A DNA stretch of 64,000 nucleotides from Ligilactobacillus ceti DSM 22408 (GTDB lineage: Bacteria; Bacillota; Bacilli; Lactobacillales; Lactobacillaceae). A program made the translations under genes and the position numbers. This document shows positions 1,346 to 24,455 of the stretch, one piece after another. How positions within the stretch are numbered: the stretch's first letter is position 1; each line of letters opens with the position of its first letter. The notes under the pieces are model-generated. The model ran no database searches and was not told the origin of the DNA. It saw only the letters and a program-made list of their open reading frames with translations. The stretch covers positions 454,159 through 518,158 of the forward strand of contig NZ_KE383993.1 of NCBI RefSeq assembly GCF_000423245.1, given 5' to 3'.

Positions 1346-1353
1346 AAGCGAAC

Positions 1354-5382: not shown

Positions 5383-5387
5383 CTAAA

Positions 5388-6458: not shown

Positions 6459-6470
6459 ACCGCATAATAA

Positions 6471-6516: not shown

Positions 6517-6521
6517 TATTA

Positions 6522-7871
6522 TTAATTACGACTGCGCCAACGAGGATCTGTTAAAACACGGGCGACAGTTAAGCCTAAAGGTAAGCTAATCGCTAAAATA
6601 ATTGCTTTCGAAATCCATAAAGCAGCTGGGGCAACGGCGACATTACCTAAATAATAAAAGGCTTTATACATATCTAAACCGGGCACCATAATCACTAAGG
6701 AAGGAACAGTAAGGGAAATGCGTGGGAAACCCGTTTGTTTAAAGAATAAAACAGCTAGTAAACCGGCTGTCATCGCACCAATAAAAGTTGCAGGGGCAGG
6801 AAACATTCCCTGACCAATTAAAGCTAAACGTAAAGCATTCGCTAAAGTCCCAATGATGCCGGCACTGGCAGCCATTTTAACGGTACTGTTGAACATAATC
6901 GAAAAGCCAAAAACGCCAAAAAAGCCAAAGAATAAACGTAAAGCTAATAATAACCAAGTGTTTAGATGCATTGGTGTAAAGTCACGGGGGGCTAGATGTA
7001 AGACGCTGGCAACCATCCAACCAATAATCGTAGCGACAATAATAACAATCAAAGCATGAAAGAAACGTTCAATCCCGGAACGCATATCTTGTTTTGCTAA
7101 ATCCAAGCCACTCGTAATCAAAGGAAAGCCCGGAATCACGAATAACATGGCGCCGATATAACCGGTAATGTGACCGGCGCTCAAATGTAATAAAGGCATC
7201 GAGATCATCACGCAAATCCGATAAATCGTACAAGCCACCGTCACGGAAATGGCGATAGCGACGAGGGGCATTAATTTCTTCGCTAATAATTTAGCCCGGG
7301 TAAAACTCCCGGCACCGGCACCCAAGAAGGCGAATAGCATCGCAATCGGATGACCGCCTAATAAAAAGACGAAAGAAGCACACGCAAAACCAGCCGCTAA
7401 ACCAATTTGCCACGGACGATAAAGAATCGGTGTTTTTTCGATGTTTTCAATTTCGGAACTAATTTGGTGGAGCGTTTTGTTGACGGATGAGAACTCGAAA
7501 TTCGCAATATATTCTTCTAATAAGCTTAATTTAGCTGTGTTCACGCCACTAGTGGGGATCGTGAGACTCGTTGAGTGGGATTCACCCGAATTCGCATCAA
7601 AACAAGTATAGTTAATATTCACTAAACCGATATCAGCATCACAACTAATGCCTAATGCGGCCGAAATAATATTCATCGCTTCCCGAATGCGCCAAGCACC
7701 CGTCCCACAACTTAACATCCCCATGCCAATTTGGCCGACGATTAAAGCTTTGTCTTTTAAATCAGCTTGCTTAATCGTACAGTTGGGATTTTGACACATT
7801 TTGTCCCAGGGAATCGGGGTATGATGACACATCTTACTGTCGGTGCGCTCAATTTGTGTTCGATTTTCCAT
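6522..7871 (-). CDS. Threonine/serine exporter family protein (fused ThrE and ThrE_2 domains)
   Basis: A 449-residue membrane protein. Residues about 45-230 form the ThrE (DUF1212) domain, recognisable from the soluble N-terminal part with GMGMLSCGTGAWRIREAM and then the first membrane bundle (GLAAGFACASFVFLLGG). The second bundle, about 290-440, corresponds to the ThrE_2 (DUF3815) domain. The single-chain form of about 450 residues matches Corynebacterium ThrE, which exports threonine and serine; many Firmicutes split it in two. The N-terminus has an unusual Cys/His cluster (MCHHTP, MCQNPNC) that could bind metal. An AGGAG ribosome binding site precedes the ATG. It is transcribed alone, divergent from the hydrolase at 8013. 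Substrate is inferred from family. Confidence 0.85.
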   Translation of the reverse strand: MENRTQIERTDSKMCHHTPIPWDKMCQNPNCTIKQADLKDKALIVGQIGMGMLSCGTGAWRIREAMNIISAALGISCDADIGLVNINYTCFDANSGESHSTSLTIPTSGVNTAKLSLLEEYIANFEFSSVNKTLHQISSEIENIEKTPILYRPWQIGLAAGFACASFVFLLGGHPIAMLFAFLGAGAGSFTRAKLLAKKLMPLVAIAISVTVACTIYRICVMISMPLLHLSAGHITGYIGAMLFVIPGFPLITSGLDLAKQDMRSGIERFFHALIVIIVATIIGWMVASVLHLAPRDFTPMHLNTWLLLALRLFFGFFGVFGFSIMFNSTVKMAASAGIIGTLANALRLALIGQGMFPAPATFIGAMTAGLLAVLFFKQTGFPRISLTVPSLVIMVPGLDMYKAFYYLGNVAVAPAALWISKAIILAISLPLGLTVARVLTDPRWRSRN

Positions 7872-8012
7872 AATAATCTCCTACTATTTTTAATCTATTA
7901 GTATAATTATAAAACTTATTGTCCGTTTAATCATCTAATGTGACTATTAGTTTTCTTTTTTAAATGAAAAATTATATAATAAAATTATCAAGATAAGAAA
8001 GGTTCTGATTAG

Positions 8013-8648
8013 ATGGCGACTATCTTGTTACATGGATTAGGACAAACGGCGGCGAGTTGGAAACAAACACTGCAACATATCACACAAGAAGATGTTGTTT
8101 GTCTAGAGTTAAAAGACTTGATTCAAGATCAAACATTGAACTATCAGAATTTGTATCAAAGTTTTGAAGATTATTGTCAAACATATGATGAACCATTAAA
8201 TTTGTGCGGCTTATCATTGGGTGGGATTTTAGCTTTAAATTATGCGCTAAACCATCCAACGAAAACCCAGTCACTCATCTTGATTGGAATTCAATATAAA
8301 ACACCACAAAAATTAATTAAATTACAAAATAAAATTATGAAATTTTTACCGGAGCGTGTTTTTGGATCGGCTAGTTTTAGTAAAAAAGAGTTCTTAAGCT
8401 TGAGCCAAAGTATGCTGGAGATAGATTTCACGCAAGATTTAACTACAATTACATGTCCGACTTTAGTTATTTGTGGTGAAAAAGATCACTGGAATAAAAA
8501 AGCAGCCATTACCTTGAATGATCAACTCGTACACGCGAAATTAAATATTATGCCCAATGCCGGCCATGAAATCAATCGTGATAATCCAAGTGAGCTCGGC
8601 CAGGTGATGCAAGAATTTTTAGCGAAAAATAATTTATCAAAGAGATAA
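8013..8648 (+). CDS. Alpha/beta hydrolase
   Basis: A 211-residue soluble enzyme of the alpha/beta-hydrolase fold. It shows the oxyanion motif LLHGLGQT near the N-terminus, the nucleophile elbow GLSLGG (about residues 69-74, Ser nucleophile), an acid in GEKDHW and the catalytic His in NAGHEINRDNP. The fold includes esterases, lipases and acylglycerol hydrolases; the small size and absence of a signal peptide suggest a cytoplasmic esterase, but the substrate cannot be read from the sequence. TATAAT-like bases precede it and AGAAAGG serves as ribosome binding site. The two small membrane protein genes that follow may be co-transcribed, since no clear terminator separates them. Confidence 0.85.
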   Translation: MATILLHGLGQTAASWKQTLQHITQEDVVCLELKDLIQDQTLNYQNLYQSFEDYCQTYDEPLNLCGLSLGGILALNYALNHPTKTQSLILIGIQYKTPQKLIKLQNKIMKFLPERVFGSASFSKKEFLSLSQSMLEIDFTQDLTTITCPTLVICGEKDHWNKKAAITLNDQLVHAKLNIMPNAGHEINRDNPSELGQVMQEFLAKNNLSKR

Positions 8649-8698
8649 AGAGTTAGATAGCAAGATTTATAAAAACAAAAAGAAGTGAGGTTATTTAG

Positions 8699-8872
8699 AT
8701 GAATAAGTATGTCATGATTTTTTTGTTGCTAGTATCAATTTATTTAATGATCAAACAATATACAGAATATAAAAACACTCAAAAAATTAATTATTTTGTA
8801 TTAATTTGTACATTGATTTGTTTTATATGTGCTGTCGCATATATCGTGTTAATGTGGATGGGACTGGCATAA
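8699..8872 (+). CDS. Small two-pass membrane protein, 57 aa
   Basis: ATG at 8699 follows AAGTGAGG by 9 bases, and the frame runs 57 codons to TAA. The product begins MNKYVMIFLLLVSIYLMIKQ, has a short polar loop (YTEYKNTQKI) and a second hydrophobic helix (VLICTLICFICAVAYIVLMW). The ribosome binding site and hydrophobic pattern argue for a real gene. No family is recognised. It sits 50 bases after the hydrolase and 51 before another small membrane protein gene. Confidence 0.6.
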   Translation: MNKYVMIFLLLVSIYLMIKQYTEYKNTQKINYFVLICTLICFICAVAYIVLMWMGLA

Positions 8873-8923
8873 TTCACCTCTGTAGAGATTGGTAATATAA
8901 AAAGAAAGCATAGGAATTGGTAG

Positions 8924-9265
8924 ATGAATAAAAAAATTCGAATTTTAAATCTGTTAGTCAAGTTGACGGCGATTGTTCTTATAATCGATGGTATCTTAAT
9001 TCTGGGCGGTATTTATTTTAGTACATTGTCATGGGTGGTTAATATGATTATTGGCCTGCTTTGTTTGGGCGTTGGATATTATTATTACAAAAAAGAAACC
9101 TTATTAATCCAACTATACTCACAGCAGTTTACATTCCATGCTCCACCAAAAGCACAAATTGTGGTGGAAGTGGTAGTAATAATCATGAAGTTCATCTTGG
9201 CACTTGTTTGTTTAAATGGGATTTTATTTAGATTATTCATCGAACATATGGCAGTTTTTGGTTAA
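8924..9265 (+). CDS. Small membrane protein of unknown function, 113 aa
   Basis: A 113-residue protein with three predicted membrane helices (about 10-30, 33-55 and 83-105) and a short polar loop (KKETLLIQLYSQQF, FHAPPKAQ). No motif is recognised. AGGA lies about 10 bases before the ATG. It is followed directly by a strong terminator, so it ends the hydrolase transcription unit. It is the last gene with host-like composition before the BREX island. Confidence 0.65.
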   Translation: MNKKIRILNLLVKLTAIVLIIDGILILGGIYFSTLSWVVNMIIGLLCLGVGYYYYKKETLLIQLYSQQFTFHAPPKAQIVVEVVVIIMKFILALVCLNGILFRLFIEHMAVFG

Positions 9266-9386: not shown

Positions 9387-9470
9387 TATAATATACTCTG
9401 TATACTTATATAGAAAATGATTATAATAATAATAGCGAAATTATACGAAAAAGTTCAAATAACAAGGAGG
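9387..9470 (+). promoter_or_regulatory. BREX operon promoter and leader
   Basis: A perfect TATAAT lies at 9387-9392; I see no good -35 match 17 bases before it. The leader is about 75 nt, contains TGTATACTTATATAGAAAATGA (9399-9420 in two overlapping blocks) and ends in a perfect ribosome binding site AAGGAGG (9464-9470). The core TATAGAAAATSA recurs downstream of both island terminators (20489-20500 and 22191-22202). No gene for a BrxR-type regulator lies upstream. Confidence 0.5.
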
Positions 9471-9475
9471 ATTAG

Positions 9476-10081
9476 ATGAATCAAAATACACCTTATTTAG
9501 CTTCTCTGACAAGGGAGCCTTTTATGTATGTTGAAATGAAAACCACTGCTTCTCTTTTAAACCAAGGACTAAATGAATTTGAAATAATCGAAAAAGTATT
9601 AAATGAAAATCTCTTCCAATATCCTACAGAAAGAACACTAGAAAGAAGAGCAAAAGCCTGTCTCAAACGCTTAAATCATCTTGATAAAGAAATGATTGAG
9701 TGGATAGAAAATAGATCAATGGAAGCTTCCAAACAAATTTGTTTATACGCTTTTATGAAAGATAGTCGCTTGATATATGAATTTATGTTGACAGTGATTG
9801 GCGAAAAATATGAAACCTTAGATTTTTCATATAGTAGAAACGATATCGCGAAATTTTTTAATAGATTACAAGAACAAAATGAACAAATAGCTTCTTGGTC
9901 TGATAGTACTATCAATAAGCTCATCTCAGTATTGGGTGGTGTCTTACGTGATGTTGGATATATTGATACTACTAGAAGTAAAAAATTAAACAAACTGCTA
10001 CTAGACTATAAACTAAAGGAAAAAATCATAGCAAACGGAGATGCACATATGCTTCCTGCTTTTGATTGTTTTGAGGTATAA
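9476..10081 (+). CDS. brxA: BREX protein BrxA (DUF1819)
   Basis: A 201-residue protein with the all-helical layout and size of BrxA/DUF1819, first gene of type 1 BREX operons. The N-terminal part (YLASLTREPFMYVEMKTTA) and the C-terminal block (INKLISVLGGVLRDVGYID) are family-typical. BrxA resembles RNA-binding antiterminator NusB-like folds and binds DNA in studied systems; whether it is essential for defence varies between systems. The start ATG has a perfect AAGGAGG five bases upstream. Identification also rests on order: it is followed at once by brxB, brxC, pglX and pglZ on the same strand with gaps of 2-29 bases. Confidence 0.92.
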   Translation: MNQNTPYLASLTREPFMYVEMKTTASLLNQGLNEFEIIEKVLNENLFQYPTERTLERRAKACLKRLNHLDKEMIEWIENRSMEASKQICLYAFMKDSRLIYEFMLTVIGEKYETLDFSYSRNDIAKFFNRLQEQNEQIASWSDSTINKLISVLGGVLRDVGYIDTTRSKKLNKLLLDYKLKEKIIANGDAHMLPAFDCFEV

Positions 10082-10083
10082 CT

Positions 10084-10641
10084 ATGAGCGTATTAAACGA
10101 AAAAATGGATCGGTTAAAAGTCAAAATGTCAGATGAAGACTTTTTGCACGGTAAAGGATTAAGTAATGAAGTCAATATAAGAATGTTTACCTATGATCCC
10201 CAAGATGAAATGGAAGTTCGATATTTTATAGAACAACTCAAATCAGATACACACCTTAAATGTAATATCAAAGAATATAATCTCTACAGTATATTTTTAG
10301 GTATTTGTGAAGACAAAAAACTGTTACATAAGATACCTGATATGGAAGCTAAAAAAGGATCTGATTTCTTGCTTAGTAAGATATTAAAGTTTTCAACTAC
10401 TAAGGCATTTATAGATAAGATGCAAGATGAAGATAGACAACATGGTGATGTAATTTTTCTAACAGGAGTAGGCGAAGTATTTCCGTTTATGAGAGTTCAT
10501 TCATTACTGGAAGAAATGCAAGTAGCCTTTGACGATGTACCAATCATTGTGATGTATCCAGGTGAATTCAATGGTAGAGAAGTAGTATTATTTAACGAAT
10601 TTAAAGCGAATGAATATTATAGAGCTTTTAATCTGATATAA
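10084..10641 (+). CDS. brxB: BREX protein BrxB (DUF1788)
   Basis: A 185-residue cytoplasmic protein of the DUF1788 family. Typical elements are the N-terminal helix with ENKMDRLK-like sequence, the central IFLGICEDKKLLHKI segment, and the strand-rich C-terminal part FLTGVGEVFPFMRVHSLLEEM followed by PIIVMYPGEFNG. The family is found almost only in BREX and is needed for defence where tested, in a complex with PglZ and BrxC; its biochemical activity is unknown. It begins two bases after the brxA stop, with the ribosome binding site GAGGT inside the end of brxA, so translation is probably coupled. Confidence 0.92.
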   Translation: MSVLNEKMDRLKVKMSDEDFLHGKGLSNEVNIRMFTYDPQDEMEVRYFIEQLKSDTHLKCNIKEYNLYSIFLGICEDKKLLHKIPDMEAKKGSDFLLSKILKFSTTKAFIDKMQDEDRQHGDVIFLTGVGEVFPFMRVHSLLEEMQVAFDDVPIIVMYPGEFNGREVVLFNEFKANEYYRAFNLI

Positions 10642-10656
10642 AGTGAGGATAAAATT

Positions 10657-13600
10657 ATGAAAATACAAAATATGTTTTATGATGACATTAATCGTAAAAT
10701 CAATGGTGTTATCAAAGTAGATCAAGACACATTAGATGTAACAAAACAAGAAGTCGATGAATATGTTATTACAAGAGAATTAAAAAAACATTTTATTACA
10801 TTTTTTAATTCTTATTCAGACTCTTTTAAACAAGAAACAGATGATATTGGTGTTTGGATCTCAGGTTTCTTCGGCTCTGGTAAATCTCACTTTCTTAAAA
10901 TACTTTCATATATCTTAGAAAATAAAGAAATAGACGGCAAAACTACTGTTGAGCGATTTAGAAATAAATTGGAAGATGATCCAGAAACTTTTATGTTAAT
11001 TGATCAATGTACGAAAACACCAGCTGAAACTATCCTCTTTAATATTGATATAGAAGGTCCAATGAATAAAGATAAAACTGCAGTCATGCAGGTCTTTGCC
11101 AAAATGTTCTATAATCATCTGGGATATTATGGAGATAATTTCAAAGTTGCAAAACTTGAACAATATATTGATAAAAAAGGCAAATTAGATGAGTTCAGAC
11201 GAGTATTTGAAGAGAAAAATGGTAGTTCTTGGGTAGATTCAAGAGATTCATTTGATTTCCTTGAAGATGAAGTAGTAGAAACACTAGTAGAAGTAGTAGG
11301 TATGAGTGAAACTGCAGCAAGAAACTGGTTTGATTCAGAAGAAGAAATCAATCTATCTATAGCAAATCTTGTCAAAGAAATGAAAGACTATGTCAAAGAT
11401 AAGCCAAAAGACTATCGACTCTTATTTATGATTGATGAAGTTGGTCAATATGTCGGTGGCGATACAGATATGCTATTGAACCTTCAATCTTTAGCTGAAA
11501 AAATAGGTTCAGAGTGCGGTGGTAAGATTTGGATCATGTGTACCGGTCAAGAAGCTATCGATGAAATCATTCGCACAAGAACAGATGAATTCTCTCGGAT
11601 CCAAGCCCGTTTTAAAACTAGATTATCATTATCTTCATCTTCTGCTGATGAAGTTATTCAAAAGAGAATACTTAGAAAAAATAATGAATCCAAGCTATTT
11701 TTAGAAAACACTTATGAAAATAGAAGAAATGAAATGGCAAACCTCTTTAAATTTAGAGAATCTGTAGGTGATATTAGAGGATTTGAAAGTGCTGAAGAAT
11801 TTTCTGTTAACTTTCCATTTGTGCCTTATCAATTTATCCTAATGCAAAAAGTATTTAGTGAAATCAGAAAACACGGGAATGCTGGTAAGCACTTGTCTGG
11901 TGGAGAAAGATCAATGCTTTCTGGATTCCAAGAAGCAACACAAAGAATTCAAGACAAAGATGAAAATGCTATTGTGCCATTTTATATGTTCTATGATACA
12001 GTTCACACATTCCTTGATAGTTCTATTAGACAGGTCGTAGAAAGATGCGAAAGAGCTATTCAAGATAATAAAGGTCTGGAACCAGGCGATGAAAATGTGC
12101 TGAAGCTGCTCTATATGATTAGATATGTCGATGATGTTCCTGCCAAACTGGATAATATTATTATCTTAATGGCAGATGATATCCGAGTAGATAAAATCAA
12201 CGAAAGAACTAAAATTCAAGAGTCTCTCGATCGCCTTATTAAGCAAAATTATATTGCGAGAACAGGTGATACTTATAACTTCTTAACAAACGAAGAACAA
12301 GATGTTGAACGTGAAATTAAAAATGAATATGTAGAACCATCAGAAGTTAGTAGAGATATTGCTGAAATTATTTTCGGCCAAATTTATAATGCTAAAAAAT
12401 ATCGCTATAACAATAAATACGACTTTGATTTTGATAAAAAAGTAGATGATTCCTATATTGGAAAACATTCTGACAATATGGAAATCCAAATACTAACACA
12501 AGCAACATCTCAAATAGATAAATATGAGCTTAAATTAATTGCAGCTTCTAACAAAAAAGTGATATGTGTGCTTGCAGAGACAGAGTATTATAACTATCTT
12601 GAAGAAGCGAAGAAAATTAAGAAATATGCCCGGAAAAAGAATGTATCTCAACTTCCAAAAACAATGCAAGATATCATTAGAACGAAGCAAGAATTAGCAG
12701 AAACATATGAACAAGATGCTAAAGAACAATTAATAGAAGCATTCAAGCAAGCTATCTTCTATATTGATGGAGAAAATGCAAATATCACTTCAGGTACTCC
12801 AAAAGAAAAAATTGATATGGCTTTTTCAAATCTTGTAGGTGATATTTATAGAGATCTTAACATGATTGAAGAAAACGCTGATTCAGATGAAGATATCTTG
12901 AATTTATTAAGTGGTAAAAACGATGATGGTACGATGAAAGGTTTTGAACCAAATAGAAAAGCTGCCAATGAAGTAGAAACATTTATTGATTTCCAACATA
13001 ATCAACAACTACCTACTACTATGGCAGATGTACAAAAACGATTCCAAGCAATTCCTTATGGTTGGAAAGAAATAGATGTAGCCTATGTAGTTGCGAGACT
13101 GATTTATGAACAAAAAGTAACCATTAAATATGGTGGCGAAACTATTAGAGCAGATAACAAAAGACTACCTGACTTATTAAGAAAGAAAACTGAAATCGGC
13201 AAGACACGGATTCAAAAACGTAAAGCAATAGCTTCCAAAGATATCAAAGAAGTAAAAGAATTCCTAAGAGATTTCTTTGGAGCTATGACTTTACCACAAG
13301 ATGATGATGGCTTAAGTATTTATATTGTAGATAAGTTTGAAGAACTTCAATCACACTATAATAATCTTTTACAAAAATATCAGACTAGAACCTACCCAGA
13401 TAAGAACAAAATTCACGAAGCAGATAGTACTATTTCAGCATTACTAAAAGCTAAAACTGATAACATAGCTCTAGTTAAAAAACTAATAGATATGCAAGAT
13501 GATTTATACGATATGCAAGATGATATGGATAAAGTTGAAAGTTTCTTTGACTCTCAAGTAAATACGTTCAATGCAGCGGTAAAACTCGAAGCTGATTTAA

Positions 13601-14244
13601 AACATGATAGAGAATATTTAGTAGAAGAAACAGAAGTAAATGAAGCTCTTAATCAAATTAGACTAATAGTTTTAATAAACCCTTCAAAAGATAATTATAA
13701 CTATACAGATATTACAAAGCTTAATAATCTTATGAAGATAGTTCATGATGGTCACGATAAACTTCTTGATGCCAAAAAAGAAGATCTGTTTGAAATAGTG
13801 AGAGCATGTATGGAAGAAATTCACTCTGCTGATACTGATACTTTAGATACTAATATAAAAGCTGTAATTAAGCGAAGTGATGATTTCTATACTAACAGAA
13901 AAGAAAGTATTACAAATGCAACATCACTAGCAATCCTTGAATCTTATATTCCAGGATTATGGACGCAAAAAGATAAGTTCACAAAACATATAACAGACTT
14001 AACCAAGTCTAATCAACATGAAAAAGATTTACTTGAAAAGAAAAGAACTGCACAAGAAAATAAAGCTGTTAAAGAAGAAGTCAAAGAACCTGTAAAAGTT
14101 AAGCATATTAAAAGCTTGCATAGACAGATTTTATTCCCAGCTAAAAGAATTGAATCTGAAGAAGAAGCAAGAGCTTATGCCAAAGAAATAGAGCAAAAAC
14201 TCTTAATATCTATTAGAGATTGTGATGGAATAGATATCAGCTAA
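10657..14244 (+). CDS. brxC: BREX ATPase BrxC
   Basis: A 1195-residue P-loop ATPase (DUF6079-type BrxC/PglY), the usual size for type 1 BREX. The Walker A motif GFFGSGKS is at residues 70-77 and the Walker B LLFMIDEVG near 256-263 (acidic pair D260-E261). The C-terminal half is largely helical and charged, with coiled-coil-like stretches (about 880-1130). BrxC assembles with BrxB and PglZ and is required for both host methylation and phage exclusion in studied systems. The start follows GTGAGG, 15 bases after brxB. No truncation or frameshift is visible. Confidence 0.95.
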   Translation: MKIQNMFYDDINRKINGVIKVDQDTLDVTKQEVDEYVITRELKKHFITFFNSYSDSFKQETDDIGVWISGFFGSGKSHFLKILSYILENKEIDGKTTVERFRNKLEDDPETFMLIDQCTKTPAETILFNIDIEGPMNKDKTAVMQVFAKMFYNHLGYYGDNFKVAKLEQYIDKKGKLDEFRRVFEEKNGSSWVDSRDSFDFLEDEVVETLVEVVGMSETAARNWFDSEEEINLSIANLVKEMKDYVKDKPKDYRLLFMIDEVGQYVGGDTDMLLNLQSLAEKIGSECGGKIWIMCTGQEAIDEIIRTRTDEFSRIQARFKTRLSLSSSSADEVIQKRILRKNNESKLFLENTYENRRNEMANLFKFRESVGDIRGFESAEEFSVNFPFVPYQFILMQKVFSEIRKHGNAGKHLSGGERSMLSGFQEATQRIQDKDENAIVPFYMFYDTVHTFLDSSIRQVVERCERAIQDNKGLEPGDENVLKLLYMIRYVDDVPAKLDNIIILMADDIRVDKINERTKIQESLDRLIKQNYIARTGDTYNFLTNEEQDVEREIKNEYVEPSEVSRDIAEIIFGQIYNAKKYRYNNKYDFDFDKKVDDSYIGKHSDNMEIQILTQATSQIDKYELKLIAASNKKVICVLAETEYYNYLEEAKKIKKYARKKNVSQLPKTMQDIIRTKQELAETYEQDAKEQLIEAFKQAIFYIDGENANITSGTPKEKIDMAFSNLVGDIYRDLNMIEENADSDEDILNLLSGKNDDGTMKGFEPNRKAANEVETFIDFQHNQQLPTTMADVQKRFQAIPYGWKEIDVAYVVARLIYEQKVTIKYGGETIRADNKRLPDLLRKKTEIGKTRIQKRKAIASKDIKEVKEFLRDFFGAMTLPQDDDGLSIYIVDKFEELQSHYNNLLQKYQTRTYPDKNKIHEADSTISALLKAKTDNIALVKKLIDMQDDLYDMQDDMDKVESFFDSQVNTFNAAVKLEADLKHDREYLVEETEVNEALNQIRLIVLINPSKDNYNYTDITKLNNLMKIVHDGHDKLLDAKKEDLFEIVRACMEEIHSADTDTLDTNIKAVIKRSDDFYTNRKESITNATSLAILESYIPGLWTQKDKFTKHITDLTKSNQHEKDLLEKKRTAQENKAVKEEVKEPVKVKHIKSLHRQILFPAKRIESEEEARAYAKEIEQKLLISIRDCDGIDIS

Positions 14245-14273
14245 TAGCTAAAAAGTACAATGAGAGGTAATTT

Positions 14274-17200
14274 ATGAATAAAACTGCGATTAAAAACTTT
14301 GCTATCTGGGCTCGTCAAGAGTTGATAGCTTCAGTTAAAAAAAGAGCAAAAGAATATGAAATAGAAAAAGATAATATTAAACCTGCTATAGAGGCCACGA
14401 TACAAGGTAAGTTATTATCTCTTGAAGAAAAACGGCAAAGACAAATACTGATAGAAAAAATTGAAAAAGATGGCTTTGATGAGACTGTAGAAGAAGTAGC
14501 CTATACTTGGTTTAATAGATTTGTTGCAATCAGATTTATGGAAGTCAATGGATATCTACCAAGTCATATTAGAGTCTTTTCCAGTGAAAATGGCGACTTT
14601 TCGCCAGAAATACTAACTGAGTGTCTGAACATCGACATGAATGGACTGGATCAAACTAAAGTATTAGAACTTTATCAAGCAGCTGATAAAGAAGCTCTAT
14701 TTAGATATCTTTTTATTACTCAGTGTAATGCATTATCTGATATCTTACCTGGAATGTTTGAAGAAATATCAGACTATACAGAGTTACTCTTGCCTACAGG
14801 ACTTTTAAAAGATGAATCTGTTCTCCACTCTTTAGTAGTTGATATTCCAGAAGAAGATTTTAAAGAGCAAGTTCAGATTATTGGATGGATGTATCAGTAT
14901 TATAATACTGAACCTAAAGATGAAGTATTTAGTCGACCAAAGTCAAAAAAAATCAACAAAGAAGATATCCCTGCAGTTACTCAGTTATTTACACCAGATT
15001 GGATTGTAAAATATATGGTAGAAAATTCTCTAGGTAGACTTTGGTTAGAAGGACATCCTAATGAATCAATCCAAGAAAATTGGAGATATTATATTGCTGA
15101 AGCAGAGCAAGAACCTCAAGTGGAAGAAAAGTTAAAAGAAATCCGCAAAGAATATGAACTTATTGAACCTGTAGATATTAAATGTATAGATCCATCTATA
15201 GGAAGTGGTCATATAACTTGTTATTTATTTGATGTTTTGATCCAAATTTATGAATCTTATGGATATAGATCTAGAGATGCTGCAAAACTGATAATAGAAA
15301 ATAATATATATGGACTGGATATTGATGAACGAGCAAGACAGCTAGCGTATTTTTCTGTCATGATGAAGGCCAGACAGTACGACAGAAGATTCTTATCCAG
15401 AAAAGATAGTCCACAGCCTAAAATTTATGCAATTGATGAAAGTAATTTATTTATTACAGAGAATGGTAAATATGCATTAGACTATTTTATAGATGGAAGA
15501 CCTGAGTTATCAGAAGCTATCCACTCAATTGTTAATGATATGATTGATGCCAAGGAATATGGATCTATTATCGATGTAAAACAAGTAGATTTTAAAATTC
15601 TATATGATAGATTTGATGAACTGATAAACGGAAATCCAGATATGTATAGTATGTTCCTGATTGAAAGTTTATTACCTCTTGTTAAACAAGCTGAAATTTT
15701 AAGTCAAAAATATGATGTTGTTGTAACAAATCCACCATATATGGGTGGTTCTGGTATGAACAAAAAGTTATCTAAATATGTAAAAGATAATTACAAAGAT
15801 AGTAAATCAGACCTCTTTGCTGTATTTATTGAAAAATGGAATGATATGATTAAACCTTATGGGTTTAATGCTATGGTTACAATGCAAAGTTGGATGTTCT
15901 TATCATCATATGAAAAATTCAGAAAGAAAGTTATTGAAAATATGACTATATCTAATCTAATGCATATGGATAATATGGTTATGAGAATAGCGTTTGGGAC
16001 TGCAGTAACTGTATTTAGAAATATGCGTTTAGATGGATTTAAAGGAACTTATAACCATATAAAACTTGAAGATATTATTGAAGATGAAAGAACTAAAGAA
16101 GATCGACCTAAAGAATTTCCAGTTCAAGGTAATAGATTTGCTAAAATTAGTACTGAGAACTTCAAGAATATTCCTGGAATGTCAATAGCTTATTGGGCGA
16201 GTGATAGTATTTTGGATGCTTTTGAACATGGGGTAATTTTAAAAACTGAAGGTGATACTAGACAAGGAATGGCGACTTCAGATAATAATAGATTTTTAAG
16301 ATTATGGCAAGAAGTGGACTTTAATAAAACTGGAATAGGTTTTCAAAATTCAAATGTAGCAAAAGAAAGTAAAAAGAAATGGTTTCCATATAATAAAGGC
16401 GGAGAATTTAGAAAATGGTATGGAAATATAGATTATTTAATAAATTATGAAAACGACGGTAAAGAAGTTAAAGACTTAGCAGCCCACAAATATAAATCAT
16501 ATACAAGAACTATCAAAAGTATTAGTGAATATTATAAAAAATGCTTAAGTTGGTCTAAAATATCAAGTGGTAGTATAGCGTTTAGATTTTATCCAGAAGG
16601 ATTTATATTTGATGTTGCTGGATGTTGTATTTTTTATAAAAAAGATGAATATATGTTGTATGATTTTGCACTTTTGAATAGCAATGTTTCTAAATATATT
16701 TTTAGTATGATATCACCTACTTTGAATTATGAAACAGGTCATATAGCATCACTTCCAGTAATACGAAATAATTCTAATAAATATAATATTTCTGAAATTA
16801 TTTTTCAGAATATCAGTCTAGCTATGAGCGACTGGGATATGCACGAAACTTCTTGGGATTTTGAGAAATCACCATTACTTGCCAACAAGCAAGATGGCTT
16901 ACTTTCATCTGCCTATGAATCATATAAAGAGGAAATTAATACTCGTTTTGCTACATTAAAAGCAAACGAAGAAGAGCTTAATCGTATCTTTATAGAAATT
17001 TATGGTCTTGAAGATGAGCTTACTCCGGAAGTATCAGATAAAGACATTACAGTTTCCAAAATCTTTGATAACAAAAAAGACATCTATGAAGAAATCAAGG
17101 GGAATAAATATATTCTTACTAAAGAAGATGTAATCAAGAACTTCTTATCATACTTTATAGGCTGTTCTTTAGGTCGCTATTCTCTTGATGAAGATGGTTT

Positions 17201-17831
17201 GATTTATGCTGGTGGTGAATTTGATCCAAATAAATATACTAAATTCCCTGCTGATGAAGATGGAATTATTCCATTTACAGATAAGGAATATTTTGAAGAT
17301 GATGTACTAGTACGTCTTAGAAACTTCTTGAAAATAACTTTTGGTGAAGAGACAGTCAATGAAAACTTAGATTTTATCGCCAGTGTTCTTAAAGGCAAAG
17401 CTTCTGATAATTCAACTGAAAAGATCAGAGCTTACTTTATGAATGATTTTTATAAAGAACACGTTAAGAAATATAAAAAACGACCAATATACTGGCTTGC
17501 AGATAGTGGCAAGTTAGGATCCAGTAGAAACTTGATTTATATGCATCGATATCAAAAAGACACCATAGCACGACTTAGAATCCGCTATCTCTTTGAGATT
17601 CAAGATAGATATAAGCAAGAACTAGAGCATTTAGAAAAACAAATAGAAAGTGCTAGTTCAGATAAAGTTACCTATCAAAAACAAGCTAATAGACTTAAGA
17701 AACTAATTCTAGAAACAGAAAAATATGAAGAAAAAGTACAACACTTTGCCGATGCAAGTTTAGCAATAGATCTTGATGACGGAGTCAAAGAAAATTACGC
17801 CAAATTTAAAGATATACTCGCAAAAATATAG
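14274..17831 (+). CDS. pglX: BREX site-specific adenine DNA methyltransferase PglX
   Basis: A 1185-residue N6-adenine methyltransferase that marks host DNA at the BREX recognition site and sets the specificity of exclusion. The SAM-binding motif I reads DPSIGSGH (near residues 306-313), and the catalytic motif IV is NPPY at 486-489 (context DVVVTNPPYMGG). The part after about 600, including SDNNRFLRLWQEV and SGSIAFRFYPEGF, corresponds to the target-recognition region. The C-terminus (about 1120-1170) is a coiled coil. Full length for type 1. Unlike the phase-variable pglX loci described in Lactobacillus casei, no inverted-repeat partner fragment or recombinase gene lies nearby. The ribosome binding site is GAGAGGT before the ATG. 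The recognition sequence cannot be predicted. Confidence 0.95.
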   Translation: MNKTAIKNFAIWARQELIASVKKRAKEYEIEKDNIKPAIEATIQGKLLSLEEKRQRQILIEKIEKDGFDETVEEVAYTWFNRFVAIRFMEVNGYLPSHIRVFSSENGDFSPEILTECLNIDMNGLDQTKVLELYQAADKEALFRYLFITQCNALSDILPGMFEEISDYTELLLPTGLLKDESVLHSLVVDIPEEDFKEQVQIIGWMYQYYNTEPKDEVFSRPKSKKINKEDIPAVTQLFTPDWIVKYMVENSLGRLWLEGHPNESIQENWRYYIAEAEQEPQVEEKLKEIRKEYELIEPVDIKCIDPSIGSGHITCYLFDVLIQIYESYGYRSRDAAKLIIENNIYGLDIDERARQLAYFSVMMKARQYDRRFLSRKDSPQPKIYAIDESNLFITENGKYALDYFIDGRPELSEAIHSIVNDMIDAKEYGSIIDVKQVDFKILYDRFDELINGNPDMYSMFLIESLLPLVKQAEILSQKYDVVVTNPPYMGGSGMNKKLSKYVKDNYKDSKSDLFAVFIEKWNDMIKPYGFNAMVTMQSWMFLSSYEKFRKKVIENMTISNLMHMDNMVMRIAFGTAVTVFRNMRLDGFKGTYNHIKLEDIIEDERTKEDRPKEFPVQGNRFAKISTENFKNIPGMSIAYWASDSILDAFEHGVILKTEGDTRQGMATSDNNRFLRLWQEVDFNKTGIGFQNSNVAKESKKKWFPYNKGGEFRKWYGNIDYLINYENDGKEVKDLAAHKYKSYTRTIKSISEYYKKCLSWSKISSGSIAFRFYPEGFIFDVAGCCIFYKKDEYMLYDFALLNSNVSKYIFSMISPTLNYETGHIASLPVIRNNSNKYNISEIIFQNISLAMSDWDMHETSWDFEKSPLLANKQDGLLSSAYESYKEEINTRFATLKANEEELNRIFIEIYGLEDELTPEVSDKDITVSKIFDNKKDIYEEIKGNKYILTKEDVIKNFLSYFIGCSLGRYSLDEDGLIYAGGEFDPNKYTKFPADEDGIIPFTDKEYFEDDVLVRLRNFLKITFGEETVNENLDFIASVLKGKASDNSTEKIRAYFMNDFYKEHVKKYKKRPIYWLADSGKLGSSRNLIYMHRYQKDTIARLRIRYLFEIQDRYKQELEHLEKQIESASSDKVTYQKQANRLKKLILETEKYEEKVQHFADASLAIDLDDGVKENYAKFKDILAKI

Positions 17832-17842
17832 GAGGTATGCTT

Positions 17843-20446
17843 ATGGACTTAAACGATATTACAAAAGATTTAAATAAGAAATTTGCAGCTGAACTTCCTG
17901 AATTTTATAACCGACGAATTGTTATATGGATGGATCAGGAACAAGAGTTTGAAGATCTTATAGATGAAGTATCTATCGAAAATGTAAAAGTCCTTAAGAT
18001 GACCGATAATAACAAATTTTTCGTCAAAAAGACTTTATGTTTTGATGATACGGAGTCTGATTATTTGCTATATTGTCCAATTGAATTCAAGTCAAATGAA
18101 GACAATTGGATTACAGATATCTTTAAACTTAAAGGAACAGAAGATTTTAGAGCAGATAGAGTCTCTATTGAAATAGCTGAAATGGGACTGGATGATTATA
18201 GACCCTTTAGAAAAATAGTTAAACAATATAAAAAATTCTTTAATGCCAAGAAAAGACGCGAAGATATCAAGAAATTATCTAACAAGATTGATAGTGAGTC
18301 TAAATTTGTACTTGCTATTATGAGTGTTATAGCAAATTGTGAAATGATACCTGCTACTATCATTAGAGAAGTCATCAAAGCTGGGTTAGATAAAAATGAA
18401 AACTCAATCTATCAAGAAATGAAAAAATATGATATAGATAAAGCTTTCTGGGAATTAGCTAATCAAGGCAGTGGATATCATGCAGAAGATCCTTCTATTA
18501 AGGATCTCTTTGTAAGTATTTTGCTAACAGCTTCATTAAGAAATATAGATAAGTCTGTCTTTGATGACTTGGATAAGTATATTAATATCCCACAAGAAAC
18601 ATTTTGTTTTGAGTTTGTAGAAGATTGGATACGAGATACTCATGATAAAGAATTGTTTAAACAATTTTCAAAAGAGATTGCTGCAGAAATAAATCTTTAT
18701 GACAGATTAAAAGAGACTGATTTGGTGAAATTTGAAAATTCAGAGGCTTTCGAAGAAGTTGATGAAGCTATTTTGTATAAACTACTCGATAATATTGCCA
18801 ACAATATCATAGATACAGAAAGCTTGATTAAAATTGTAGAAAATAGACGAGTTATGGCTTGGCATCACGATTTTGAACATTATTATGAAGGTATTTATTA
18901 CATGGCGAAGATGAAGGAATTTTACAATCAACACCAACAATCTTTCCATGAAATAGAACCGCAAAAACTTTGGGAAAATTATGCTAATGACTTTTATATT
19001 ATGGATACTTACTATAGAAAGTTCCAAAGAGCTTTACAGGAAAGTTTAACCAATCATAATTTAAGACTGGATGATGTGTTCAAAAGAGCAAGTGAACGTG
19101 CTGAAGGTATATATAAAAACTGGTTCTTAGATAATTTACTAAACAACTGGTGTAATATAGCTGGAGAAAGTTTAGAAAAATATGGTTATATTCCAGAGTT
19201 AAATAGACAAGTCGATTTTTATCAGGATAATATCAAATATGCTAAAACAAAGATGTTTGTTATTATTTCAGATGCAATGCGTTATGAGGTTGGGGTCGAG
19301 CTTGCTGAAGAACTTAAGAAAGAAATGCAATGTCAAGTAGAAATGAATAATATGGAAGGGATTTTCCCAACTATTACACCTTTTGGAATGGCAGCCTTAC
19401 TTCCTAAAAAAGAGCTTAGTATAGATATTAAAAATGATAATATCAAGGTCTTAGCTGATCAAGAATATACAGATTCCAACTATCGAGAAAAGATACTCAA
19501 AAAAGCTAATGATAAATCTGTAACTTTAAAATATGATGATTTAATACAGATGAAACGTGACGAAAAAAAAGCTTTAGTGAAGGGTATGGATGTAGTTTAT
19601 ATTTATCATGATAGAATTGATGAAGCTGGACATGGATCTGGCAATGAAGTCTTCTCTGCTTGTGACGTTGCAATCAGCGAACTCAAAAATTTAGTTAGAA
19701 TTATTGTGAATGATTTTTCTGGTGTCAATATTATGATTACAGCAGATCACGGTTTTATCTATACTTATAATCCATTTACTGAAGAAGATAAAATCCAAAA
19801 GAAAGGCTTTGATGGTGCAGTAGCAGTTGGTAGAAGATACGCTGTTATGAATGATACTGCTGAGCCGGATTATTTGATGCCTGTGAAAATAATCGCTGAC
19901 AATCCAGGTCTGAAAGGTTTTACACCAAGAGAAAATAGCCGTATCAAAAAACAAGGCGGTGGAATTAATTTTGTTCATGGTGGTATCTCCTTACAAGAAA
20001 TGATGGTTCCGCTAATTTCTTATAAACATCTAAGAAACGCTAGCAAGACTTATCAGGAAAACAAAAATAAGTATGATACAAAACCAGTTGAACTGAAAGT
20101 TCTTTCAAATAGTAGAAAAATTAGTAATATGATATTTAAGATGTCATTTTACCAAAGTGAAATGGTGTCAGTTAATCGGGTAGCAGCTAATTTTACATTG
20201 TACTTTGTTGATGAATATGGAAGTAAAATTTCAGATGAAGTCAGAATAATTGCTGATAGAAAAAATGTAACTGATGATACAGATAGAAAGTTTGATGTTA
20301 GTTTTAACCTCAAAACTGGAAATTATAACAGTAAAAACCCTTATTACCTGATGATAATAGAAGAATCAAATCAATTACCACCTGAAAAAATAGAATTCTC
20401 TATCGATATTCCTTTTCCTACAGGTGAATTAGATTTCTTTAGTTAA
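17843..20446 (+). CDS. pglZ: BREX alkaline-phosphatase-superfamily protein PglZ
   Basis: The signature protein of all BREX types, here 867 residues. The PglZ core of the alkaline phosphatase superfamily has its metal-binding motifs at FVIISDAMRYE (Asp near 477) and ITADHGFIYT (Asp-His near 635-636). The segment YIYHDRIDEAGHGS in between is also family-typical. The last 150 residues form an Ig-like beta-rich domain. PglZ is a nuclease or phosphatase-like partner of BrxB/BrxC; its exact role in exclusion is unsettled. The upstream ATG at 17837 is only one base from GGAGG (17831-17835), whereas the ATG at 17843 has ideal spacing, so I use the latter. Five bases separate pglX and the first ATG. 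A strong terminator follows; brxL is not there. Confidence 0.95.
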   Translation: MDLNDITKDLNKKFAAELPEFYNRRIVIWMDQEQEFEDLIDEVSIENVKVLKMTDNNKFFVKKTLCFDDTESDYLLYCPIEFKSNEDNWITDIFKLKGTEDFRADRVSIEIAEMGLDDYRPFRKIVKQYKKFFNAKKRREDIKKLSNKIDSESKFVLAIMSVIANCEMIPATIIREVIKAGLDKNENSIYQEMKKYDIDKAFWELANQGSGYHAEDPSIKDLFVSILLTASLRNIDKSVFDDLDKYINIPQETFCFEFVEDWIRDTHDKELFKQFSKEIAAEINLYDRLKETDLVKFENSEAFEEVDEAILYKLLDNIANNIIDTESLIKIVENRRVMAWHHDFEHYYEGIYYMAKMKEFYNQHQQSFHEIEPQKLWENYANDFYIMDTYYRKFQRALQESLTNHNLRLDDVFKRASERAEGIYKNWFLDNLLNNWCNIAGESLEKYGYIPELNRQVDFYQDNIKYAKTKMFVIISDAMRYEVGVELAEELKKEMQCQVEMNNMEGIFPTITPFGMAALLPKKELSIDIKNDNIKVLADQEYTDSNYREKILKKANDKSVTLKYDDLIQMKRDEKKALVKGMDVVYIYHDRIDEAGHGSGNEVFSACDVAISELKNLVRIIVNDFSGVNIMITADHGFIYTYNPFTEEDKIQKKGFDGAVAVGRRYAVMNDTAEPDYLMPVKIIADNPGLKGFTPRENSRIKKQGGGINFVHGGISLQEMMVPLISYKHLRNASKTYQENKNKYDTKPVELKVLSNSRKISNMIFKMSFYQSEMVSVNRVAANFTLYFVDEYGSKISDEVRIIADRKNVTDDTDRKFDVSFNLKTGNYNSKNPYYLMIIEESNQLPPEKIEFSIDIPFPTGELDFFS

Positions 20447-20452
20447 ACCCCA

Positions 20453-20480
20453 AGCCAGCAGAATTTCTGCTGGCTTTTTA
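20453..20480 (+). terminator. Rho-independent terminator of the BREX operon
   Basis: AGCCAGCAG and CTGCTGGCT pair perfectly around AAATTT-type loop bases and are followed by five T. It lies 6 bases after the pglZ stop and therefore closes the operon where brxL would be expected. Confidence 0.9.
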
Positions 20481-20623: not shown

Positions 20624-21088
20624 ATGGCAGAAAATAAGCATAAACCAGAGCAAGTTATATTGACGAATATGTGCGTCATAGAAGACGATCAGGGAAATGT
20701 TGTTGCCATAGATAAGGTAACAGGTTCATACACAGGAACTACATTTCCAGGTGGGCATATAGAGAAGAATGAGATTTTTAATGACTCAATTATTAGAGAA
20801 GTAAGAGAAGAAACAGGTCTTATAATTAAACATCCTAAGCTTAAAGGAGTCTATCATTGGTACAGAAATGATATTCACTATGTGCTATTTATCTACCACG
20901 CAAAGGACTTTACAGGAGAATTGACAAGCTCACGTGAAGGCAAGGTTTACTGGATAGAGCTTGAAGAACTAAAGAAGAAAAAGCTTGCCACAGGCACAGA
21001 ACACGTCATAACTATGATAGAAAATGATGATATAAATGAATGCTTTATGAAACCTGATGGAGATACGTATAAGGGTGAGTTGTATTGA
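20624..21088 (+). CDS. NUDIX hydrolase (MutT-like)
   Basis: A 154-residue NUDIX pyrophosphohydrolase. The full NUDIX box is present: G44-x5-E50-x7-R58-E59-V-R-E62-E63-T-G65-L, which binds the metal and cleaves nucleoside diphosphate-X substrates. The N-terminal strand VILTNMCVIEDDQGNVV and the C-terminal half WIELEELKKKKLATG fit 8-oxo-dGTP-ase-like members that are common in lactobacilli. The real substrate cannot be told. It starts 20 bases after AAAGGAG. Codon use is like the BREX genes. It could be a housecleaning enzyme carried as cargo, or part of a functional set with the ATP-grasp protein that follows about 110 bases later. Confidence 0.88.
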   Translation: MAENKHKPEQVILTNMCVIEDDQGNVVAIDKVTGSYTGTTFPGGHIEKNEIFNDSIIREVREETGLIIKHPKLKGVYHWYRNDIHYVLFIYHAKDFTGELTSSREGKVYWIELEELKKKKLATGTEHVITMIENDDINECFMKPDGDTYKGELY

Positions 21089-21201
21089 TTAGAGTTAATA
21101 CATATTAAATAAGAATACTTCTGATAGATATCGAATTATATTATTGGAATTCTTTTAACTGTTATAGTATTCATTTTAGTTTTAGGAGAGTGATTGTAGT
21201 A

Positions 21202-22104
21202 ATGGAAATAAACAGGGACATTTGTCAAAACAAAAGTCTTAATTTTATATACTGTAATCATCCGCTATATAAAAATAAAGTTGATTTTGGTTATGAAGAA
21301 GAATTTGAAATCAGCAAAAAATTAGGCAATAATTGTGCTTTATTTAGCTTTGAAGATATGGCAGATGGAAAATTAAAACTCTCTGGAGATGAAATAAAAG
21401 GTCAAGCGATTTATAGAGGTTGGATGATGAAACCTAAAATGTATAGGACTTTTTATGAAGCCTTATCTCAAAAAGGGATCGAACTTATTAATACTCCAGA
21501 AGAATATGAAAAATATCATCTTTTGCCTAATTGGTACGATGAATTTCAAAAATTAACAGCTAAATCTGTATGGACAGAGGACTTGTCAGATGAGTCGCTA
21601 AAAGAGATTTTGCAAAACTTTTCTGAAGATGTTATTGTGAAGGACTATGTAAAAAGCAGAAAACACGAATGGGATGAAGCTTGTTTTATTCCAGATGTTA
21701 AGGATGTAAATAAAGCTCTGGAAGTAATAAAGACCTTTATAAAAAGGCAAGATGAATACTTAGTAGGAGGAATTGTTCTTAGAGAATTTCTTGAATTAAA
21801 AACTATTGGACATCACGAGAAAAGTAATATGCCGATATCAGAAGAATATAGAATATTTATTTTGAATAATATTCCTATAGTGATGGATTCATATTGGCAT
21901 CACGCAGAAAGTAATTTATCATCTGAAGAAAAAGAATGGATATCAGACATTTCTAAGCAGTTGAAAAGCAAATTTGTAACCATAGACCTTGCAAGAAAAA
22001 CGGATGGAAAACTGGTTATTATGGAACTTGGAGATGGTCAAGTATCCGGACTTCAAGATATACCTGAAGATATATTTTATAATGCTTTTGAAAATTATAA
22101 ATAA
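21202..22104 (+). CDS. ATP-grasp domain protein, R2K clade (DUF4343-like)
   Basis: A protein of about 300 residues with a C-terminal ATP-grasp fold. Supporting motifs are EDVIVKDYVKSRKHEWDEACF (Lys and Arg typical of the R2K clade), VLREFLELKTIG, EEYRIFILNNIPI and the metal-binding end FVTIDLARKTDGKLVIMELGDGQVSG. The N-terminal FIYCNHPLYKNKVDFGYEEEF is also characteristic of this DUF4343-like family. ATP-grasp enzymes form amide or ester bonds through acyl-phosphates; R2K members have been proposed to modify proteins or peptides and occur in phage and defence contexts, but no substrate is known here. The frame could open at GTG 21190, but AGGAG (21184-21188) abuts that codon, so ATG 21202 is preferred. 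Confidence 0.78.
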   Translation: MEINRDICQNKSLNFIYCNHPLYKNKVDFGYEEEFEISKKLGNNCALFSFEDMADGKLKLSGDEIKGQAIYRGWMMKPKMYRTFYEALSQKGIELINTPEEYEKYHLLPNWYDEFQKLTAKSVWTEDLSDESLKEILQNFSEDVIVKDYVKSRKHEWDEACFIPDVKDVNKALEVIKTFIKRQDEYLVGGIVLREFLELKTIGHHEKSNMPISEEYRIFILNNIPIVMDSYWHHAESNLSSEEKEWISDISKQLKSKFVTIDLARKTDGKLVIMELGDGQVSGLQDIPEDIFYNAFENYK

Positions 22105-22153
22105 ACCAATTGATCAAATTAATCACCATTTAAATATTCCAAATTAAACCACC

Positions 22154-22202
22154 AGCCAGCAGGATTTCTGCTGGTTTTTATATTGTACTTTATAGAAAAT
22201 CA
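22154..22202 (+). terminator. Rho-independent terminator/leader repeat, copy 2
   Basis: AGCCAGCAG pairs with CTGCTGGTT (one G-U pair), followed by five T and then the same 21 bases as after the BREX terminator. TATAAT at 22221-22226 lies in the extra segment found only in this copy and could be part of the promoter for the MATE gene. Confidence 0.85.
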
Positions 22203-22301
22203 AAAAATGCTAAAGTTTGCTATAATAATATCAGATAACTATAAAATAAAATTAATATTGTAATCTGAATTTTAAATGTTGAACACTTAGGAGAAGAGAA
22301 A

Positions 22302-23630
22302 ATGGAAAATATTCAACTAGGAAAAGAAAGCCTGTTGAAACTTTTTATCAAATATGTTCTACCTGCCATTATTTCTATGGTAATTACAGGTATTCAAGGA
22401 ATGATAGATGGTATCTTTTTGGGGAATTATGGCAGTATCAATTCAATGGCTGCTGTCAATGTCGCTACGCCATTTATGCAACTATGGATAGGGACCGGAA
22501 TGATTATCTGTATCGGCACATTAAGTTATTTAGGTATTACCTTAGGTCAAAACGATAATGCTAAAGCCAAGGATATTTTTAAAAGTGCTGTAGTCGGACT
22601 AAGTATTATATCTATGATTATTACTGTTTTAGGCGTATGCTTTTCAGGTGATTTTGCCAGATTATTAGGTGCCAATCAAGTCCTAATGAATGATACAAAA
22701 GCCTATATCTTTACCTTTTCATTCTTTATCTTTTTTGCTACATTTATGCTTTTATTTGGCTTTGTCGATCGACTAATTGGCAAGCCGCGACTCTATTTAT
22801 ACGCTACTATTGGTGCCCTGATTACAAATATCACCGGCGATTTTATAGCTATAAAAATTCTCCATTTAGGAGTAGTCGGTGCTGCGATTGCTACAGGATT
22901 AGCATATTTAGTAGGTTTTTTAATTACATTACCACCACTTATGAAAAAATCTTCTGCTGTCAATATTTTTGATGGTAGATTTAGATTAGATATTTTTATC
23001 AAGGCATCCGTTAATGGATCATCAGAAGGTATTAGCTATTTAGCAACGGCACTTGCTTTATTTTTATTTAATCGTGCTTTTTTACAGTTTGCAGGAGAAG
23101 GTGGCATTGCTGCTTTTACCGTAATTATGTATATTCAAAATTTTGCTGTTCTTTTAATGTTTGGAGTATCTGATGGTATTTCTTCAATAGTCAGTTACAA
23201 CTATGGAGCAGGCAATCATCACAGAGTTCGCAAGGTCTTTTATCTATCAGCAGTGCTTAACTTTGTCTTTGGTTTGCTTTCGTTTTTAGTTTTATTCTAT
23301 TTTGGAGAAGATTTGATCCTGCTCTTTATTAAAGATAATCCTGCCATTTTAAAATTTGCCCTCGATGGAATGAATCTCTTTGCGCTTAATTTATTTTTCT
23401 GTGGCTTTAATATACTTCAGTCTGGCTTTAATACAGCAGTCGACAATCCTATTACTTCTATGTGGATAGCTATTAGTCGGGGCTTTCTGCTGATTCCGCT
23501 GGCAGTCCTTGTCTTGCCTCGAGTTATGGATGTCCAAGGTCTCTGGTTAGCACTTCCCATGGCAGAGCTTGGAACAGCACTTATTTGTCTCTGGATAATG
23601 TTTAAGAAAAGGGATTTATATTTTAAATAG
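22302..23630 (+). CDS. MATE family multidrug efflux transporter
   Basis: A 442-residue, 12-helix membrane protein of the MATE (MepA/NorM-like) family, which exports cationic drugs or toxic metabolites with Na+ or H+. Two homologous six-helix halves are visible: the first begins FIKYVLPAIISMVITGIQGMID and contains LGNYGSINSMAAVNVATP, the second begins IKASVNGSSEGISYLATAL and contains MFGVSDGISSIVSYNYGAG. AGGAG lies ten bases before the ATG. It has its own upstream region with TATAAT and no obvious terminator after it. Arg codons are mixed AGA and CGN. It may export a product of the neighbouring ATP-grasp enzyme, but this is inference only. Confidence 0.9.
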   Translation: MENIQLGKESLLKLFIKYVLPAIISMVITGIQGMIDGIFLGNYGSINSMAAVNVATPFMQLWIGTGMIICIGTLSYLGITLGQNDNAKAKDIFKSAVVGLSIISMIITVLGVCFSGDFARLLGANQVLMNDTKAYIFTFSFFIFFATFMLLFGFVDRLIGKPRLYLYATIGALITNITGDFIAIKILHLGVVGAAIATGLAYLVGFLITLPPLMKKSSAVNIFDGRFRLDIFIKASVNGSSEGISYLATALALFLFNRAFLQFAGEGGIAAFTVIMYIQNFAVLLMFGVSDGISSIVSYNYGAGNHHRVRKVFYLSAVLNFVFGLLSFLVLFYFGEDLILLFIKDNPAILKFALDGMNLFALNLFFCGFNILQSGFNTAVDNPITSMWIAISRGFLLIPLAVLVLPRVMDVQGLWLALPMAELGTALICLWIMFKKRDLYFK

Positions 23631-24442: not shown

Positions 24443-24455
24443 TATTAATAACTAC

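Follow-up and report, generated by a model that had tools for sequence, protein, structure and literature searches.

A five-gene, type 1-lineage BREX operon without BrxL in Ligilactobacillus ceti DSM 22408

BrxL accompanies most type 1 bacteriophage exclusion (BREX) systems: according to a 2026 survey, 76% of such systems include it, as do 74% of canonical taxa, 2913 of 3937 (PMC12839542; citations by PMC number refer, here and below, to passages of the papers concerned). The presence of brxL therefore does not bound the lineage, and the same survey makes the case that BREX can manage without BrxL and puts forward PglZ as its central effector. BrxL may act as effector, helper or brake: Escherichia coli and Acinetobacter need it, whereas Salmonella can do without it. 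In this study a BREX operon without BrxL was analysed in Ligilactobacillus ceti DSM 22408, within a stretch of 64,000 nucleotides (hereafter the window; positions 454159-518158 of contig NZ_KE383993.1, C1 of the assembly). The operon is intact, comprises five genes and belongs to the type 1 lineage. The best overall explanation, to which we assign a probability of roughly 0.5, is that brxL was lost after the split from its relatives and that the operon works via PglZ. An earlier note on this DNA, made from the sequence alone, had treated the missing gene as something of a rarity; this was overstated, as about a quarter of type 1 systems are without BrxL (PMC12839542), and the operon is fairly ordinary given that losses of brxL are already recorded and frequent.

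All five genes lie on the forward strand in the order of the type 1 core. brxA (9476-10081, 201 residues) matches the Pfam model BrxA PF08849 at 197.9 bits (cut-off 23) and the PADLOC BrxA model at 209.5 bits, whilst brxB (10084-10641, 185 residues) reaches 234.7 bits with the PADLOC BrxB model. The product of brxC (10657-14244, 1195 residues) scores 1160.5 bits with NCBIfam NF033441, BREX_BrxC (cut-off 400), and matches the solved BrxC 9zdx; pglX (14274-17831, 1185 residues), encoding an N6-adenine methyltransferase, scores 1395.3 bits with NF033452, BREX-1 PglX (cut-off 500), and has the solved homologues 8c45 and 9ewz. The last gene, pglZ (17837-20446, 869 residues), is of type A, as identified by TIGR02687 at 579.2 bits (cut-off 270) and by alignment. 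Catalytic motifs are present throughout: a Walker A motif, GFFGSGKS, at residue 70 of BrxC; NPPY (residue 486) and DPSIGSGH in PglX; and ISDA, TADHG and VHGG in PglZ, together with the metal and nuclease-site residues D479, T514, D595, D637, H638 and H714. Five bases after the pglZ stop begins the hairpin of an intrinsic terminator (20452-20476, forward strand), an 11-pair stem with a T tail, which occupies the position of brxL in the nearest relatives and folds at -18.1 kcal/mol against a mean of -6.7 for shuffled sequences (z -5.43; equalled by none of 200 shuffles). The genes, order, strand, lengths and strong terminator reported in the earlier note were all borne out, the type 1 families being matched far above their cut-offs. 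Its statement that no BrxR lies upstream is consistent with the open reading frame (ORF) at 8924-9265, which has no Pfam, PADLOC or NCBIfam match, and with the 210 bases between it and brxA, which hold no listed ORF; no search was made for a regulator elsewhere.

The absence of BrxL extends to the whole assembly, a draft of 1.386 Mb in 17 contigs with a completeness of 99.33%. Two Pfam models for different regions of the protein, PF13337 (the ATPase part) and PF20442 (the N-terminal part), found no match in it; DUF4007, the family under which the earlier note had proposed a genome-wide search, is presumably something other than BrxL's Pfam models. As a positive control each model was matched in two of 14 named genomes, and in a parallel search of 100 genomes, the present one among them, PF13337 was matched in six, so the method works in this group. 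A gap in the assembly hiding brxL was rejected, as the locus lies well within contig C1, flanked left and right by unrelated genes, and so was a remnant behind pglZ: searching the window by tblastn with BrxL of three relatives gave a best E value of 0.68 and no match behind pglZ. The suggestion that BrxL may be supplied from another locus accordingly found no candidate in the assembly and is unlikely, since both models are silent there. The claim that no AAA+ or Lon-like protein occurs in the next 40 kilobases (kb) needs amending, as the AAA+ unfoldase HslU is encoded at 39749-41173, about 19 kb downstream of pglZ (match to HslU in the PDB, E 1e-146); HslU, however, is no BrxL.

Types 5 and 6, in which a helicase replaces BrxL, are also unlikely. 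PglX reaches only 298 of the 900 bits required by the BREX-5 model and 348 of the 900 required by that of BREX-6, and the PglZ score likewise falls under the BREX-6 cut-off. Pfam detected no helicase among the flanking ORFs at 386-9265 and 20624-25234 and four further ORFs to 33076 (PADLOC was run on five of these; no genome-wide search was made), and neither BrxH nor, for type 6, BrxE and BrxD were found among these flanking genes.

The nearest relatives were sought by a profile search of genome contigs with an alignment of 11 PglZ sequences, from which the best 80 of at least 587 confirmed relatives were taken; nearest here means nearest among the matches listed, and records close to the genome of the window were possibly left out. 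(A scan of genome contigs with PglZ as a single protein returned 20 stretches, none of them confirmed, and plasmids searched for a close copy of it yielded only short pglX pieces of 76-83% identity and PglZ of at most 47%.) The closest loci among these matches come from Peptostreptococcus russellii (L060), Asaccharospora irregularis (L061) and Vagococcus elongatus (L062), L numbers denoting loci and G numbers genomes of the order of the window, Lactobacillales. Identity to these three is 62-68% for BrxA, 66% for BrxB, 64-67% for BrxC, 49-62% for PglX and 58-60% for PglZ. A PglZ tree of 111 rows places the window as the sister of these three with a Shimodaira-Hasegawa-like approximate likelihood ratio (SH-aLRT) of 100; this is a quick tree (LG+G4, SH-aLRT without bootstraps) in which L027, L157 and L054 are long branches of unsure placement, further long branches meet at L023/L024, and five fragment rows (L125, L130, L131, L134 and L144) were dropped.

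In all three relatives an ORF for brxL begins 12-16 bases past the pglZ stop. DNA similarity between their loci and the window by blastn forms a block at 9461-20446 (forward strand), which starts 15 bases 5' of brxA for P. russellii and A. irregularis and at 9485 for V. elongatus, runs in long pieces of 66-70% identity that are fragmented within pglX, and ends at the pglZ stop, with no trace of brxL left there. Across 48 loci with a BrxL of at least 600 residues and at least 1000 bits, the distances between BrxL proteins track those between PglZ proteins (Mantel r 0.87, p 0.0001); brxL has therefore been inherited with the operon and was not newly added in the relatives. The tree and the alignment favour loss; because the nearest relatives have pglZ followed by brxL and homology of the window stops at the pglZ stop, the missing gene is very probably a loss rather than a primitive absence. 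With protein identities of about 60% and no remnant, this loss gives no sign of recent date, nor does it make the system non-functional. The earlier note had held that pglZ-brxL in near relatives with a clear recent deletion here would speak against a BrxL-free form; the arrangement exists in all three relatives, whereas the recency does not show.

Two further genes follow brxL in these relatives, an ORF of 318 residues and one of 180-182 residues, at about 62-64 bases. In P. russellii, the one locus scanned for this purpose (L060:14719-16207), they match NTP_transf_2 and Cap15, which by our reading would be a pair resembling a cyclic-oligonucleotide-based antiphage signalling system (CBASS) in tandem with BREX; a nucleotidyltransferase gene also stands behind brxL on an L. 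salivarius plasmid, a single case. Downstream of pglZ the window has a counterpart of neither ORF.

Loss of brxL is common among relatives of this operon. Within the PglZ tree 68 rows have BrxL, 38 are without it and five are unscored, a distribution that takes 17 changes of state, 16 of which are forced by starred branches. Among the named loci BrxL is locally missing in 13 of 71 scoreable rows, where missing means no BrxL within at least 3.3 kb past pglZ and is not a genome-wide statement; the count becomes 12 of 70 without L092, which is probably misfiled, as a second pglX fills its stretch and two sister rows carry brxL behind theirs, and the state of L109 is uncertain. Of the 395 genomes of the order, 41 have a PglZ match, and BrxL is found in ten of these (13 of 44 when the BrxL-bearing G007, G013 and G046 are added). 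Local absence need not be absence from the genome: that of L159 (G383) has BrxL at another BREX locus. Four loci scored as bearing BrxL (L078, L084, L086 and L116) show brxL in pieces behind a full-length pglZ in the ORF calling, through decay or sequencing error; brxL is in two ORFs in L068, where sequencing error is possible; and a second pglX, in two ORFs in L090, stands between pglZ and brxL in L085 and L090. A replacement gene common to BrxL-less loci was considered and rejected, since ten proteins from nine such loci, encoded in the next or next-but-one ORF behind pglZ, appear mostly unrelated: GH18, LRR, RF3, sortilin/BNR, PPK2, flavodoxin-like and SEC-C proteins and one without any match, the other two being an Mrr-type nuclease (L155) and a Fic protein (L143).

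An indication that such systems keep a function comes from PglZ itself. T514 and H714 of the window, judging from the alignment, presumably correspond to T538 and H741 of the Escherichia fergusonii protein. There, T538A weakens defence by about 3 logs and H741A by about 10-fold, and neither change alters methylation (PMC12205998). Neither residue is replaced at the corresponding position in any of the 38 BrxL-less, 68 BrxL-bearing or five unscored rows. If the BrxL-less systems were relics that only methylate, nothing should have kept these two residues from drifting over the deep divergence sampled, and the retention of residues dispensable for methylation therefore favours a working, PglZ-driven system. 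Conservation of D479, H591 and D595 is partly by construction, as they lie in or beside the motifs by which the named loci were retrieved, whilst T514, D637, H638 and H714 lie outside them; H591 is replaced by Q in one BrxL-less row. Between the window and P. russellii, second codon positions differ least and third positions most in every gene, and Tajima-type counts give no clear sign of decay.

That the five-gene core can persist for long without BrxL is further indicated by a clade of 19 tree rows from 18 genomes of the order (SH-aLRT 99; its first branch, L027, is one of the long branches), all BrxL-less at the locus and all with NPPY kept in the PglX of the stretch. In this clade Cas9 was matched in 11 of the 19 fetched stretches, as against none of the other 92, with a model built from two sequences and stretches of varying length. 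cas9 stands in line behind pglZ in eight rows (L019, L140, L143, L146, L149, L158, L159 and L027; identified by Pfam and PADLOC in L019 and L027), at a distance of 66-692 bases in six and with one gene of 377-403 residues between in L143 and L158; it is convergent in L021, L142 and L152, and the in-line order recurs in L182 and L183, outside the tree. Four of the clade rows without Cas9 in the stretch have arrays resembling clustered regularly interspaced short palindromic repeats (CRISPR) by a repeat script, with at least 40 repeats in L028, L141 and L151 and three in L147. In L146 (1-19901) brxB is preceded by cas1, a gene of cas2 size and an array, and pglZ is followed by cas9 and a further array, so that the BREX genes sit between parts of a CRISPR-Cas system.

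A Cas9 model from nine loci was then applied to the 395 genomes and matched 49 at E 1e-60. PglZ was matched in each of the top 20 (at least 1168 bits), though only in part in G130 and G134; since BREX-linked copies went into the model, this should not be read as an unbiased rate. In five of these genomes cas9 and pglZ are not close neighbours: some 8-15 kb separates them in G066, G170 and G194, and they stand on separate contigs in G155 and G162. Among the other 29, PglZ was matched only in G243; G329, with a Cas9 of 876 bits cut at the contig start and no PglZ, is a possible exception, and the clade genomes G079 and G178 fall outside the 49. The Cas9s compared form two groups, each linked to BrxL-less BREX, with an identity of about 24-27% between the groups, and in 13 loci the distances of Cas9 agree with those of PglZ (Mantel r 0.82, p 0.0001), a result that shared ancestry alone could yield. 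This linkage was not met in the literature searched, which did not extend to subscription papers and preprints; it is absent from the CRISPR passages of PMC12839542, and the passages of PMC8547433 state no link between BREX and CRISPR. The repeated linkage of a deep BrxL-less clade to Cas9-Cas1 and CRISPR-like arrays points to a possible partnership of modification-based and RNA-guided defence. The genome of the window has no Cas9 match with the nine-locus model, and the repeat script found no CRISPR-like array in the window; the clade is therefore relevant to the present operon solely in indicating that BREX can be stable without BrxL.

Taken together, we propose that brxL, and whatever stood behind it, would have been lost after the split from a Peptostreptococcus/Asaccharospora/Vagococcus-like lineage, leaving a tidy five-gene unit closed by its own terminator. 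PglX would recognise an asymmetric site, and a complex of BrxB, BrxC, PglX and PglZ, with BrxA, would methylate the host DNA; unmethylated incoming DNA would trigger the complex and lead to a block of replication, with the metal-dependent PglZ nuclease as the predicted effector in place of any BrxL translocase. Methylation of the host DNA is probably retained, whereas the chances that at least some phages are still restricted are about even.

Several observations weigh against a working system. BREX of E. coli and Acinetobacter needs BrxL for defence (PMC12839542, PMC12205998), and if the same held here the loss would have ended restriction, the five genes surviving as an orphan modification system or serving to blunt methylation-sensitive defences. 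Such a relic is a rather doubtful explanation, given that the PglZ nuclease residues are kept in the window as in every full-length BrxL-less row, and that deletion of brxL in Salmonella leaves defence intact or raised (PMC11341690). However, the residue counts cover only PglZ of at least 780 residues, shorter rows having been dropped, and broken genes stand outside them: pglZ is only partial or broken in G130, G134, G206 and G375, all without BrxL, that is in four of 31 BrxL-less genomes of the order against none of 13 BrxL-bearing ones. Decay therefore does occur without BrxL, and the odds of BrxL-free restriction are lowered by these four cases. Changes confined to one lineage are, moreover, more numerous in the window than in V. 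elongatus for PglZ (72 against 50) and BrxA (20 against 8), about equal for BrxB (13 and 12) and BrxC (79 and 69) and fewer for PglX (59 against 88), and some relaxation in the lineage of the window has to be allowed for.

A locus already decaying and of no present function would be in keeping with these broken genes, with the frequency at which brxL is missing or in pieces among the named loci, and with the low G+C content (about 0.29-0.33 in the operon against 0.36-0.39 in the left flank, in 2-kb steps) and patchy synteny, which suggest acquired DNA. It is nevertheless improbable in view of five intact ORFs over 11 kb with their catalytic motifs, the tidy 3' end and the codon-position pattern, though that signal mostly predates the loss. 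That another protein performs the role of BrxL in trans, be it a helicase or AAA+ protein encoded elsewhere or not recognised as such, or a BrxL whose plasmid is missing from the assembly, is conceivable for a draft in 17 contigs but very improbable when both BrxL models are silent at this completeness, the flanking genes scanned include no helicase and HslU is a housekeeping unfoldase. A bolder version of loss with retained function would make BrxL-free type 1 BREX a distinct and repeatedly chosen mode, with PglZ as executor and BrxL dispensable or a brake; the operon of the window would be one of numerous cases that reached this state independently, and a deep lineage of the order would have settled on this mode, tied to two separate Cas9 subfamilies, much as though RNA-guided cleavage now did the part of restriction that BrxL had done. 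In this full form the idea is unlikely.

A NUDIX gene downstream of the operon (20624-21088) was rejected as a replacement effector, as it lies behind the terminator and does not adjoin pglZ in the three nearest relatives, where brxL does; its product found no match by phmmer in the stretches of eleven relatives (L019-L029). The R2K/ATP-grasp gene that follows (21190-22104) was rejected as part of an island, a genus-mate (G006) having a DNA match of 67%, and may be native. Comparison with an empty site within the genus failed because the matches of the flanking DNA are scattered pieces, mostly of 63-79%, and the MATE gene, tried as a synteny marker, was found in one of 26 genomes, the present one itself. 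To the left of the operon, the ORFs at 5527-5871 and 5841-6458, which overlap, resemble consecutive portions of the DUF5104 family (the second with a score under the cut-off) and may represent a single gene split by a frameshift. At 386-1345 an LPXTG-anchored Cna_B protein is encoded, and several DNA matches of 85-89% just upstream (G000:C1:443808-454078) suggest repeated or duplicated surface-protein genes.

With the canonical six-gene type 1 systems of E. coli, Salmonella and Acinetobacter the operon shares the order brxA-brxB-brxC-pglX-pglZ, a BREX-1 PglX and a PglZ of type A, but differs in having no brxL encoded with the core or elsewhere in the assembly and no recognised regulator directly upstream. 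Types 5 and 6 have in common with it a type 1-like core without BrxL, yet the operon differs from them in showing no helicase among the flanking genes scanned and in a PglX far below both cut-offs. The BrxL-less type 1 systems of PMC12839542 likewise have a type 1 core without BrxL, the present operon not being treated in the passages concerned. The loci of P. russellii, A. irregularis and V. elongatus have the same five genes in line and continue with brxL and the two ORFs behind it, where the window has its terminator. An operon that lacks BrxL by nature, set beside nearest relatives that retain the gene, amounts to a natural experiment on the role of this protein, and the tree holds many such contrasts.

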